A stretch of DNA of 64,000 nucleotides from Chloroflexota bacterium (GTDB lineage: Bacteria > Chloroflexota > Chloroflexia > Chloroflexales > Herpetosiphonaceae). The position numbers and the translations under genes were made by a program. The notes below the pieces were generated by a model. It saw only the letters and a program-made list of their open reading frames with translations, did not search any database and was not told the DNA's origin. The stretch spans positions 186,001-250,000 of the forward strand of contig JAIUOC010000008.1 of NCBI GenBank assembly GCA_020161265.1. The letters run 5' to 3'. Shown here in pieces: positions 1,935 through 10,304 of this stretch. Position 1 is the first letter of the stretch, and the number at the start of each line of letters is the position of its first letter.

Positions 1935-2852
1935 ATGCAACGAAAAAATCTTTTGGTGCTGCTGGTATTGCTGCTGGTAAGTTGTGGCCCTAGCAGTTTT
2001 GCCCAACAAACCAGTGCTAATCCGCCGCTACGGGTGGCTGCAACCGTGGGCATGATTGCCGATGTCGTCAAGCATGTTGGCGGCGAGCATGTCGAAGTGC
2101 TTGGCTTGATGGGGCCAGGTGTTGACCCACACCTCTACAAACCCAGCGTTGGCGATGTGCGGATTCTCGATGATGCTGATTTGATTTTTTATGGCGGCTT
2201 GGAGCTTGAAGGCCGCATGACCGATATGCTCGAAAAGCTCAATCGCCAAAAACCAACGATTGCCGTCACCAGCCAAATCGATCAAAGCCGTTTGCATGCG
2301 ACTGGTGGCGAATCTTTCGACCCGCATGTTTGGTTCGATGTAATTTTATGGCGCGATACGATTGCCATCATCGTTGAAACTTTGGCAAGCTATGATCCAG
2401 CCCACGCTGCCGATTATCAGCGCAACGCCGCTGCCTATGCCCAAGAACTGACCGCTTTGGATGAGGAAGTTAAGGCCTTGATTGCAACCGTGCCCAGCCA
2501 AAGCCGCGTGCTGATTACGGCTCACGATGCCTTTGGCTACTTTGGCTCAGCCTATGGCTTTGAGGTGCGCGGTTTGCAAGGGTTGAGTACGGCCAGCGAA
2601 GCGGGGGCAGGCGATGTGCAAAGCCTAGCCGAATTTATTCAAACTCGCCAAATCAAAGCAATTTTTGTCGAATCCAGCGTGCCGCAAACCACGATTAATG
2701 CTGTCCAAAAAGCCGTTCAATCACGCGGCTGGGATGTGGCAATCGGTGGCGAGTTGTTCTCCGATGCCATGGGCGATGCTGGCACTGAAGAAGGAACCTA
2801 TATCGGCATGGTGCGCCATAACGTCACCACGATTGTTAATGCGTTGAAGTAA
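1935..2852 (+). CDS. troA: Metal ABC transporter substrate-binding lipoprotein, TroA type
   Basis: A 305-residue cluster A-I solute-binding lipoprotein that captures Mn(II) or Zn(II) outside the membrane and delivers it to the permeases that follow. A short signal peptide ends in the lipobox LLVSC (Cys17). Candidate metal ligands are His66 (DPHLYKP), His131 (DPHVWFD), His198 (TAHDAFGYF) and Asp278 (FSDAMG). His at the third position, instead of Glu as in pneumococcal PsaA, matches Treponema TroA. There is no His-rich loop of the kind seen in many ZnuA proteins. The start is supported by GAGGTAG upstream. First gene of the transporter operon, behind a DtxR-type operator. Confidence 0.93.
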   Translation: MQRKNLLVLLVLLLVSCGPSSFAQQTSANPPLRVAATVGMIADVVKHVGGEHVEVLGLMGPGVDPHLYKPSVGDVRILDDADLIFYGGLELEGRMTDMLEKLNRQKPTIAVTSQIDQSRLHATGGESFDPHVWFDVILWRDTIAIIVETLASYDPAHAADYQRNAAAYAQELTALDEEVKALIATVPSQSRVLITAHDAFGYFGSAYGFEVRGLQGLSTASEAGAGDVQSLAEFIQTRQIKAIFVESSVPQTTINAVQKAVQSRGWDVAIGGELFSDAMGDAGTEEGTYIGMVRHNVTTIVNALK

Positions 2853-2975: not shown

Positions 2976-3722
2976 ATGAACGCTAGTGCAAAACCGCTTG
3001 CAATTCACGATCTAACTGTGGCCTACCAAGATAAGCCGGTGTTGTGGGATATTGATTTGAGTGTGCCAACCGGCGTGTTGGCGGCAATTGTTGGGCCAAA
3101 TGGCGCTGGCAAATCAACCTTGATTAAGGCGACGCTTGGCTTGATGCCGGTGGCGGCTGGTACGGTCGAGATGTTTGGCCAGCCTTATGCCAAAGCACGG
3201 CGGATGGTTGGCTATGTGCCGCAACGCTCCAGCGTCGATTGGGATTTTCCAACCAACGCCTTAGATGTGGTGCTGATGGGAACTTACGGCCAACTCGGTT
3301 GGATCAAACGGCCCAGCAAAGCTGACCGCGAATGGGCGCTGCATTGTTTAGAGCAACTGGCCATGGCCGATTTTGCCCAACGCCAAATTAGCCAGCTCAG
3401 CGGCGGCCAACAACAACGGGTCTTTTTGGCTCGCGCCTTGGCTCAACGTGCCCAACTCTATCTGATGGATGAGCCATTTGTGGGCGTGGATGCAGTGACC
3501 GAACGCGCGATTATCAGCCTATTGCAACAACTGCGCTCAGACGGAAAAACCGTAATCTGCGTGCACCACGACCTTGATTCAGCGCCTGAATATTTTGATT
3601 GGGTGGCGTTGTTGAATGTACGCATGATCGCTGCTGGCCCAATGAAAACTATTTGGACACCCGAAAATATTAGCCAAACCTATGGTGGCCGAACCCAAAG
3701 CCTGATTCGAGGTGCTGCATGA
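2976..3722 (+). CDS. troB: Metal ABC transporter ATP-binding protein
   Basis: A 248-residue ABC ATPase that powers metal import. It has Walker A GPNGAGKST (near residue 40), a Q-loop region (GYVPQRSSVDWDFP), signature LSGGQQQR, Walker B LYLMDEPF and the switch His in CVHHDLD. The SVDWDFP segment after the Q-loop is typical of the manganese/zinc/iron chelate subfamily. AAGGAG precedes the ATG. Its stop overlaps the start of the first permease gene (ATGA), indicating coupled translation. Together with the lipoprotein and two permeases it completes a TroABCD-type importer. Confidence 0.93.
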   Translation: MNASAKPLAIHDLTVAYQDKPVLWDIDLSVPTGVLAAIVGPNGAGKSTLIKATLGLMPVAAGTVEMFGQPYAKARRMVGYVPQRSSVDWDFPTNALDVVLMGTYGQLGWIKRPSKADREWALHCLEQLAMADFAQRQISQLSGGQQQRVFLARALAQRAQLYLMDEPFVGVDAVTERAIISLLQQLRSDGKTVICVHHDLDSAPEYFDWVALLNVRMIAAGPMKTIWTPENISQTYGGRTQSLIRGAA

Positions 3723-4642: not shown

Positions 4643-5758
4643 ATGAGTAGCACGTTTGCAATTATTCTGACTGGAATTTTGGTGGCAGCTGCCTGTGCCT
4701 CGCTTGGCTGTTTCCTGATTTTGCGGCGCATGGCGATGCTGGCCGACGCGATTAGCCATGCGATTTTGCCAGGCCTAGTAGCAGGTTATTTTATTGCCCA
4801 AGGCCCAAGTTTATTGGCAGGCTTTTTTGGCGCAGCCTTAGCAGGCCTGATTACCGTAGGCTTGGTTGAGTTGCTCAAAAATACCCAGCGCGTCGGCGGC
4901 GAATCGGCAATTGGGATTGTGTTTCCAGCCATGTTTGCCTTGGGAACCTTCCTCGTCTCGAAATATTATGCCGATGTTCACCTTGATGCCGATGCGGTGC
5001 TCTATGGCAACATCGAGTTTGTCGGCTTTGACCATTGGTATCTTGGCGAAACTGATTTAGGGCCGCAATCGCTCTGGATTATGGGCGGCTTATGTTTGAT
5101 TAATCTGATTTTTATTAGTGTGTTTTATAAAGAACTCAAATTGGCCACTTTTGATGCTGGCTTAGCAGCAACCCTTGGTTTTTCGCCAATTCTCATTCAC
5201 TATGGCTTGATGGCGGTAGTTTCAATTACCACGGTTGGCGCATTTACCGCTGTTGGGGCGATTTTGGTAGTGGCCTTGATGATTGTGCCTGCGGCCACAG
5301 CCTATTTGCTGACCGACCGCCTGCCGTGGATGATTGGCTTGGCGATTGCGGCTGGCGCGATTGCCGCAGTTGCTGGCTTTGGCTTAGCGTTTATGCTCAA
5401 CGGCTCGGTTGCAGGCGCAATTGCCACAATTACTGGAGTTGAATTTGGCTTGGCCTTGTTGTTTAGCCCCAAACAAGGCTTGGTTGCTCGGGCACAGCGC
5501 TTGGCTCGCCAACGAATTCAATTTGCTGCTGATACGCTCTTGGTGCACCTGTTGCAACACGAAGGTAGCCCCGAAGCTGCCCATGAAAGCACGATTGGCC
5601 ATTTGCAAAGCGAATTGAAATGGAATAACAAGTTTGCTCAACGGGTGCTTGATCTGGCTCAGCGGCGGAGCTTGGTGCGCTGCCAAGGCCAACAACTTGA
5701 ACTGACGACCAGTGGGCGTGAACGGAGTCAGCAAGTCTTGCAATTAGGTCGTGCCTAG
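4643..5758 (+). CDS. troD: Metal ABC transporter permease fused to a C-terminal winged-helix domain
   Basis: A 371-residue protein. Residues 1 to about 275 are an ABC-3 permease (ADAISHAILPGLVAGYF, ESAIGIVFPAMFALG, TVGAFTAVGAILVVALMIVPAATA). About 95 extra residues follow, are predicted cytoplasmic and read like a winged helix: LLVHLLQHE, then HLQSELKWNNKFAQRVLDLA as turn and recognition helix, then RRSLVRCQGQQLELTTSGRERSQQ as wing and final helix. This layout recalls the Chlamydia YtgC-YtgR permease-DtxR fusion, but the metal-binding dimerisation domain is absent. The tail may sense or bind DNA, or may only look like such a domain. AAAGGAG precedes the ATG, and a strong terminator follows the stop. 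Confidence 0.9.
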   Translation: MSSTFAIILTGILVAAACASLGCFLILRRMAMLADAISHAILPGLVAGYFIAQGPSLLAGFFGAALAGLITVGLVELLKNTQRVGGESAIGIVFPAMFALGTFLVSKYYADVHLDADAVLYGNIEFVGFDHWYLGETDLGPQSLWIMGGLCLINLIFISVFYKELKLATFDAGLAATLGFSPILIHYGLMAVVSITTVGAFTAVGAILVVALMIVPAATAYLLTDRLPWMIGLAIAAGAIAAVAGFGLAFMLNGSVAGAIATITGVEFGLALLFSPKQGLVARAQRLARQRIQFAADTLLVHLLQHEGSPEAAHESTIGHLQSELKWNNKFAQRVLDLAQRRSLVRCQGQQLELTTSGRERSQQVLQLGRA

Positions 5759-8313: not shown

Positions 8314-10173
8314 TTATCCTTCTTGATGCTCGATGCCATCGTCATCAGCCTCGTCGTTGACATCCAAAGCTGCATTGTCGGGTTCGCCGACGGTTTTCCA
8401 GCGCTGATTGATCCATATGATCAACTCATTTCGGCGTTCAGCAAACTCTTTGGGAGTCCAATCAGCAAAGGCCGCGAGTTTCCGCTCTTGGCGAATATCA
8501 GAATCGCTATAACTGGGACTTAGGCCTGGTTGGCCTTTTTTGCGGGCAAATTCAAAGTTGCTATAGCTGGCATTATTGTGGGTAAGCACAAGGTTGGCGA
8601 TATCGTGGACACTTGCATTGAAGGCGGTTTTGTTCCATACGCCATTCCAATGCGAATGTTTTGCTGGATTCTGCGGCAGAATATGCTCAATTGTCGAATC
8701 GCTGAGTTGATCCCAGCCAAGGCGTGGTTCGCTGTTTTTCCCCTCGGTCGCAAGTAGATGCAACTCATACTCAAACAGCGTGTACTTCAAGCGATTCCGA
8801 GTTCTATACCAATCGCTGGGGTTGGCATTGCCGTTGATAAAATCATCTTCAGGTGCATAGTAGCGGGTCAGTTGATGAATCCAGCGCGTGACATCAGCAA
8901 TTGGCTGTGACTGAGTAAAGATCTCGTATCCCCAACGATAGAAGCTTGATTTACCAGCATTGCTGCGTCGGGCTGCCCAAAGAAATACACGATAGGCATA
9001 GCATTCGAGTGCCTTGAGCATGTCGATGTACGCGCCTTCGCTAATCTGCCCTGCTTGGTATTGCTTGCGGGCTGCCACCATCAAGGGCAAGAAATTGGCA
9101 ATATTGCCCGTATGCCGAATCTTGCTGAGCCAAATCCGCTCAGCTTCGAATAGGGCTGTGGTGGTGGTTGGATTGATAATGCTGGCATAATGATGTGAAA
9201 CTTCGGCAAGCCCCGTCACAAAGCGCTCGATAAATATTTTTGTCTCGGCCTTCGTGCGTTTACTAAATGTTCTCAGCGGGATGTATTCATCAGCCTTGAA
9301 GCCTTCATACCCATGCCAGTTAGCTGGGGAATGGCTGCAATAGAGCGTCCAAGCGATGCGTAGACATTGATCTTCATTGTTGCCCGAACTTGCACCAAGG
9401 TTGGTGTAGGTGTCTTTCCAACTGCGATTGATTAATTTGGTGAGGGCTTCGCGATCTGCAGGGTTGTTTTCATTGCGCGAAACCCAGTGCATCAAATAAT
9501 TCTTAAGCAATTCAAGCACTGAAAGATCTTTGCCCCGTGAGTTCATCAACTCGAAGGTCATGCCAATCTCAGCTTCTTCTTCAATCACATAGAAGGTAAA
9601 ATTGAGTTTTTGGGTGATCGCATAATGCAATTCTTTGAGATAAGCGACCCCAGCGCCACCTCGTTGCTGTAACTGCTCGCTAATGTGGTGTTGAAAGCGA
9701 CGATGGGCTTCGACGAGCCGATGCTGATGTGGCGACTGAAGCGGAGTATTGACGTGCCCAGCTCTTAACAGGTCATAAAAAATATCGCCAGTTTCATTAT
9801 TGAGGTTCAGCTTGCAGGTTGCGCCTGCATACAGAAAATCGGCAATATCGCGCTCGTAGTCCAATTCGCCATGCTGAATCAGTGTGCGAATAATTACCGA
9901 AAGATAGAGACAGGTGGTGGTTAATCGCTGCTGTCCATCAACCACATCAAGCACTTTTAGTCGGGTTCGGCCATATGGTCGTTTTTCAGCGTCGCGGCCT
10001 TCGTATACAACGACGGTGCCGGTATAATGACTAGTTACCTGCTCATCCACTAATGCATCAATATCCTGAATGAAATCTCTCCACTGTTTTTCTTCCCAAG
10101 CATAACCACGCTGATAATCTGGAATTTGGTAGATTGATTCGGCAAACAAGCTCGTTAAGGTTTTTTTGTTCAT
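8314..10173 (-). CDS. GmrSD-like DUF262/DUF1524 protein (putative modification-dependent nuclease)
   Basis: A 619-residue protein with both halves of the GmrSD family in one chain. The N-terminal DUF262 (ParB/Srx-like NTPase) shows IPDYQRGYAW at 17-26 and DGQQRLTT at 79-86. The C-terminal DUF1524 (HNH/His-Me-finger nuclease) shows EHILPQNP and a downstream NLVLTHNNASYSNFEFARKKG. GmrSD enzymes are type IV restriction systems that cut modified phage DNA, and other members serve in other defence systems, so an antiphage role is inferred. The start is set at the ATG at 10173; an in-frame TTG 18 bases upstream is possible. It stands alone, without methylase or helicase partners, flanked by matching hairpins. 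Confidence 0.88.
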   Translation of the reverse strand: MNKKTLTSLFAESIYQIPDYQRGYAWEEKQWRDFIQDIDALVDEQVTSHYTGTVVVYEGRDAEKRPYGRTRLKVLDVVDGQQRLTTTCLYLSVIIRTLIQHGELDYERDIADFLYAGATCKLNLNNETGDIFYDLLRAGHVNTPLQSPHQHRLVEAHRRFQHHISEQLQQRGGAGVAYLKELHYAITQKLNFTFYVIEEEAEIGMTFELMNSRGKDLSVLELLKNYLMHWVSRNENNPADREALTKLINRSWKDTYTNLGASSGNNEDQCLRIAWTLYCSHSPANWHGYEGFKADEYIPLRTFSKRTKAETKIFIERFVTGLAEVSHHYASIINPTTTTALFEAERIWLSKIRHTGNIANFLPLMVAARKQYQAGQISEGAYIDMLKALECYAYRVFLWAARRSNAGKSSFYRWGYEIFTQSQPIADVTRWIHQLTRYYAPEDDFINGNANPSDWYRTRNRLKYTLFEYELHLLATEGKNSEPRLGWDQLSDSTIEHILPQNPAKHSHWNGVWNKTAFNASVHDIANLVLTHNNASYSNFEFARKKGQPGLSPSYSDSDIRQERKLAAFADWTPKEFAERRNELIIWINQRWKTVGEPDNAALDVNDEADDDGIEHQEG

Positions 10174-10304
10174 AGCACCCTTGGCTTTCAATCAGCATTT
10201 ACATTTGGTATTAGATTATCAAACATTTGCCACAATTGAAACTGGCTTGGATCAATAAGAACTATTAGTGATTAAATTGCGATCACACTAAAGCTTAAAC
10301 CAGC

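Follow-up and report, generated by a model that had tools for sequence, protein, structure and literature searches.

What does a winged-helix-like tail do at the C-terminus of a metal transporter? In the window, that is, the whole 64,000-nucleotide stretch of Herpetosiphonaceae DNA analysed here, the second permease of a metal-import operon runs on past its last membrane helix into such a tail, which could be a gene repressor, the remnant of one, or a working part of the transporter.

The operon and the predicted fold of the tail

The metal-import operon consists of five + strand genes encoding a regulator, a binding protein, an ATPase, permease 1, and permease 2 (Table 1). The sequence-only reading had stated that a full DtxR regulator already exists here; this was borne out, as a DtxR regulator with a FeoA domain is encoded by the first gene, separately from the permease. 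Permease 2 was identified as an ABC-3 metal permease (PF00950, 164.3 bits against a cut-off of 20.1, E 5e-48), and two Herpetosiphon records matched it at 97–98%. The top NCBIfam match of the ATPase was the Deinococcus manganese protein MntA, under the family cut-off. No Rfam riboswitch was detected in the window, the single Rfam match being a tRNA. Near the operon, the - strand encodes a GmrSD-type restriction protein with both Pfam halves (8314–10191). A secreted-looking protein with two similar repeats and no Pfam match above the cut-off is also encoded on the - strand (93–893).

Table 1. Operon genes and features of the permease 2 tail, in window positions. AF2, AlphaFold2; residue numbers are those of the respective protein, and the wider set of 141 comprises the permease-2 sequences that have W327.
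Feature	Position	Strand	Basis
DtxR/MntR-type regulator, 223 aa	1192..1863	+	HTH 4-61, metal-binding/dimerisation 64-132, FeoA 145-218; Pfam PF01325, PF02742, PF04023 above cut-off
ZnuA-type substrate-binding protein	1935..2852	+	Pfam PF01297, E 7e-80
ABC ATPase of metal importer	2976..3722	+	Pfam PF00005
Permease 1, 306 aa	3719..4639	+	Pfam PF00950, E 2.5e-68; no winged-helix tail, 31 residues past P276 equivalent
Permease 2, 371 aa, winged-helix tail	4643..5758	+	Pfam PF00950 over 6-272; AF2 full-length pLDDT 89.2
Tail, residues 276-371	5468..5755	+	AF2, conservation, dN/dS 0.031
Continuous cytosolic helix 280-306 (basic connector and domain helix 1)	5480..5560	+	AF2
Winged-helix domain proper, residues 294-370	5522..5752	+	AF2; VIA-align to E. 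coli MntR 2h09
Recognition-position helix 329-341	5627..5665	+	AF2
Wing strands 345-348, 351-354	5675..5704	+	AF2
H302 codon, candidate ligand	5546..5548	+	H in 81/81; 139/141 wider set
H306 codon, candidate ligand	5558..5560	+	H in 79/81; 130/141 wider set
E315 codon, candidate ligand	5585..5587	+	E in 80/81; 129/141 wider set, one-residue loop shift allowed
H320 codon, candidate ligand, weakest of four	5600..5602	+	H in 76/81; 116/141 wider set, lost many times

The tail that had been marked at 5468–5758 corresponds exactly to residues 276–371 and the stop codon. Modelled alone with AlphaFold2 from 81 tails, it was predicted to be a winged helix (mean pLDDT 87), with helices at 3–31, 37–40, 43–50, 54–66, and 81–95 and strands at 70–73 and 76–79 in tail numbering. 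The model of full-length permease 2 (75 sequences) gave a winged helix again, in which helix 280–306 is followed by helices 318–325 and 329–341, the two wing strands, and helix 356–370. The predicted fold contains three helices and a two-stranded wing, as expected of a winged helix. The wing had been read as LELTTSGRERSQQ, of which LEL does form wing strand 2, whereas the residues from T356 onward belong to the last helix.

In the full-length model, the last membrane helix (256–274) is joined directly to helix 280–306 by a short turn in which both P276 and G279 are kept in 81/81 aligned rows, and no flexible linker separates the membrane helix from the winged helix. Residues 276–293 (about 18) form a basic helical connector outside the winged-helix domain, with a median net charge of +5 (range +2 to +8, 81 rows).

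Spread, selection, and conserved residues of the tails

GTDB genomes were scanned with the permease alignment, and the best 80 loci were retained. Permease 2 carried a tail of 89–118 residues in all 80, a count that describes the reach of the tail and not its frequency, since the loci were picked as the best matches to a tailed alignment. The tailed relatives belonged to Chloroflexota, Armatimonadota, Poribacteria, Gemmatimonadota, Rhodothermales, Dadabacteria, Omnitrophota, Calditrichia, and Bacillota. Of the 101 genomes in the window's class, 64 contained the tail profile; among its 67 matches, 65 lay inside permease-sized or contig-cut frames and 2 were short fragments. In a Bacillota-type phylum, 106 of 249 genomes had a match, and frame length indicated that most of the matching permeases are tailless; in a wider set the tail was absent from 5 of 151 permease-2 sequences. 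The existence of these tailless relatives indicates that transport does not need the tail.

Several unusual tails were observed in the course of this search. At G084:C201:7949-8140 and G098:C145:32887-33027, short frames that lie outside any permease encode tail-like fragments, which may be remnants. At locus L150 (1476-2741), a frameshift splits the tail over two frames, reflecting either faulty assembly or degeneration of the tail. At three loci (L179, L180, and L181) from one small-genome genus of the same order, the tails are divergent and shorter and lack W327.

Among six Herpetosiphon genomes, dN/dS was 0.021 for the permease core, 0.031 for the tail (276–371), and 0.023 for residues 294–366, as calculated from 15 non-independent pairs. 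The tail is under purifying selection and is constrained like the permease core, and a functionless tail is excluded. Together, the predicted fold, the conservation, and the purifying selection confirmed the original proposal of a winged helix after the last helix of permease 2.

Besides the four candidate ligands in Table 1, the 81-row alignment kept L299, W327, and G358 in all 81 rows, T355 in 79, and E307 in 67. Across the 141 sequences of the wider set, H306, E315, and H320 were jointly lost in 7 and H320 alone in 13; the tail of Deinococcus deserti has none of the four candidate ligands. On the tree, these co-losses amounted to 4–5 independent pairs, too few to separate from shared descent. 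Since H302 and W327 persist where the other residues have been lost, some of the conservation may reflect structure.

Tails were also found on permease 1, in 43 of 78 rows; the other permease-1 rows, among them that of the window, are short. A second type of tail was identified in 41 of the 43 tailed sequences, in which column 302 holds D in 33/41, column 306 holds H in 39/41, and column 313 holds H in 41/41. The tailless permease 1 of the window belongs to an eight-row starred clade that comprises seven tailless permease-1 sequences and the Deinococcus one, and two further tailless permease-1 rows fall outside it. Tails look exchangeable between the permeases, as permease 1 bears a permease-2-type tail at two loci. 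These loci (L063:3251-4366 and L103:2721-3836) have the same tail type on both subunits, suggestive of a tail exchanged between paralogues.

A proposed role in the transporter

Taken as a whole, the tail is a conserved, selected winged helix that most likely either regulates or braces the transporter. We tentatively favor regulation: the tail may be a cytosolic, metal-responsive regulatory domain of an Mn/Zn/Fe-type ABC importer that acts on the pump and is not a gene repressor. It would stand on the rigid helix predicted to continue the last membrane helix of permease 2, presumably on the cytosolic side, where the ATPases dock and might be contacted. There it could bind or sense the imported metal through H302, H306, E315, and H320, and the metal-loaded tail would then act on the pump, for example by slowing import at high cytosolic metal. 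Gene repression would be left to the free-standing DtxR/MntR protein made from the operon's first gene. In favor of this proposal are the predicted fold, the conserved His/Glu set, the purifying selection, the variable recognition surface and acidic domain, the second tail type on permease 1, and the near-restriction of the domain to permease frames within the class; the lineages that keep a tail but have lost several of the candidate ligands, and the tailless relatives, count against it. The earlier idea of a membrane-tethered sensor comes close to this proposal, but the sensor would act on the transporter.

Comparable domains are known from the ATPase side. The C2 domain of MetNI and the C-terminal domain of ModC report substrate to the pump (transinhibition), according to PMC10710835. 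Like the tail in its proposed role, they are extra cytosolic domains of ABC importers; as described there, they sit on the ATPase and have another fold, whereas the window domain is on the permease and its inhibitory role is putative. If the His/Glu set binds metal, the tail would directly exemplify feedback on Mn/Zn/Fe ABC importers at the post-translational level, and many database entries named metal ABC transporter permease would contain an unrecognised sensor domain.

The permease-1 tails may extend the proposal. We infer that the two tails could pair with each other. A bolder and rather doubtful version is a widespread importer family in which paired metal-sensing winged helices, H/H/E/H on permease 2 and D/H/H on permease 1, come together beneath the membrane and there gate the pump by cytosolic metal, a repressor fold having become a transporter gate. 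Herpetosiphon would then keep one of the two.

The main rival to a metal-responsive domain is a structural or coupling role, which we consider possible though less probable. The tail would brace the two permeases against each other or against the ATPases and aid assembly or ATP coupling without sensing metal, and the conserved His, Glu, and Trp would form a packing or interface patch. The winged-helix fold frequently serves protein contacts, and the predicted continuity of the helix from the membrane and the persistence of H302 and W327 agree with such a role. So does Bacillus anthracis MntBC, in which, according to PMC8487065, removal of a cytosolic C-terminal helix of charge +5 abolishes transport and membrane expression is kept. 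That helix of MntC resembles the connector of permease 2 in continuing the last membrane helix, in charge, and in place, but the helix described there has 21 residues only, whereas permease 2 runs on into a folded domain. The MntBC result also speaks for the regulatory proposal, which places the domain on this helix. Against a purely structural role, H, H, E, and H would be an unusual combination if the residues served packing only, the paired permease-1 tail keeps another ligand-type set (D, H, and H) at matching columns, and tailless relatives work.

Relation to repressors and to permease-repressor fusions

A regulatory domain acting on the pump has to be weighed against a DNA-binding repressor of the Chlamydia YtgCR kind, either tethered to the membrane or set free by proteolysis. 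This we regard as unlikely, although fold comparisons lent it some support. As a single sequence, the tail had no match in Pfam, including the PF01325 HTH, NCBIfam, or the PDB. Foldseek listed MarR and DtxR/IdeR/MntR proteins, none reaching E 0.001. The top VIA-align row was E. coli MntR 2h09 (Z 11.7, rmsd 2.3, 87 aligned), with MarR and PadR rows within Z 1–2 of it and the nearest of them level with it. The suggested comparison with DtxR N-terminal domains therefore returned a winged helix with DtxR/MntR nearest, tied with MarR/PadR, and the tie means that fold alone gives no DtxR verdict.

Profiles pointed somewhat more to DtxR. The tail profile gave 28 weak matches to PDB sequences (best E 0.056), 25 of them DtxR-family chains. 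In the default local mode of hhalign, the permease-2 tails (T2) and permease-1 tails (T1) matched DtxR at 86.6% and 88.8%, respectively; with the global-mode flag the values were 52.9% for T1 and 15.8%, a weak match, for T2. Controls with the ATPase, the substrate-binding protein, and the permease core gave at most 0.6%. The T1 and T2 profiles matched each other (97.8%, E 1.2e-12). The T1 profile had 37 weak PDB matches, mostly ribosomal S10/S19e winged helices and four of DtxR type. The top weak Pfam match of the 81 tails was HemN_C (44 of 81 members, best E 2.7e-6), which we take to be a winged helix as well. The DtxR-family PDB matches, the tail in 80/80 relatives, and the purifying selection indicate that the tail is more than chance.

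Beyond the shared fold, the tail differs from DtxR/MntR repressors in lacking a dimerisation/metal domain and in its DNA-contact positions, which are not conserved. PF02742 and FeoA had no match in the window permease 2 by Pfam, and PF02742 was absent among the best 25 of the 55 Pfam families matching the 81 tails. At 89–118 residues, the tails leave no room for a metal-binding/dimerisation domain. The exposed positions of helix 329–341 are variable (mostly 2.7–3.6 bits, R341 2.2), and the winged-helix domain is acidic (net charge -9 to +5, median -3; 81 rows). No conserved DNA-contact surface was found on the recognition helix of the tail, unlike in the free DtxR proteins of such loci, 22 of which keep T41 in 20, M43 in 22, and K/R46 in 22. 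Judged from the alignments, these features speak against specific DNA binding by the tail and weaken the notion of a co-regulator in the DNA-binding sense. Furthermore, a search of 50 tail-bearing genomes, taken from the 80 loci, showed a separate PF02742 protein in 44 of them; the tail is thus typically accompanied by a genuine repressor.

YtgCR and other permease-DtxR fusions share with the window a metal ABC permease, a C-terminal winged helix, and a similar operon. In PMC5599777 and PMC7755916, YtgCR (CT069) is described as being cleaved and as having a DtxR-like domain in which the metal ligands of DtxR are conserved. Compared with that description, the window tail has no domain beyond the winged helix, conserves another residue set, and has a separate regulator beside it. 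A continuous helix with no linker, as predicted for permease 2, makes cleavage of the YtgCR type less likely. On sequence and model, a Chlamydia-type YtgCR fusion, and with it YtgCR-like cleavage, was not supported for the window permease. A review reports orthologous permease-repressor fusions in 11 phyla (PMC5599777), a finding in favor of a repressor; these may or may not include the short form. In the literature searched, which lay mostly outside subscription journals, we found no winged-helix-only tail on metal ABC permeases. In the Chlamydia fusions the tail is a gene regulator, whereas the shorter and more widely distributed form seems to put the fold to the reverse use, controlling the pump and not genes.

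Full fusions from the Bacillota-type phylum (L164-L168) served as comparators and join permease and DtxR at the same junction. Tail profiles matched fused permease-DtxR proteins at 60% and 92%, connector included, which makes a shared ancestry with the DtxR HTH possible, and T1 matched one full fusion over nearly its whole length (E 4.5e-4), again with the connector. Shared junction and profile match notwithstanding, the relic once suggested, a functionless and drifting remnant of an ancestral permease-DtxR fusion, is highly improbable: it is contradicted by the selection test (dN/dS 0.023–0.031) and by residues invariant across phyla, and the five full-fusion permeases form one clade (99*) of their own outside the tailed permease-2 clade. 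In Pfam, L164 (1450-2970) showed ABC-3 followed by Fe_dep_repr_C and FeoA; this locus and L165-L168 are YtgCR-type fusions outside Chlamydia, with DtxR dimerisation and FeoA-type parts.
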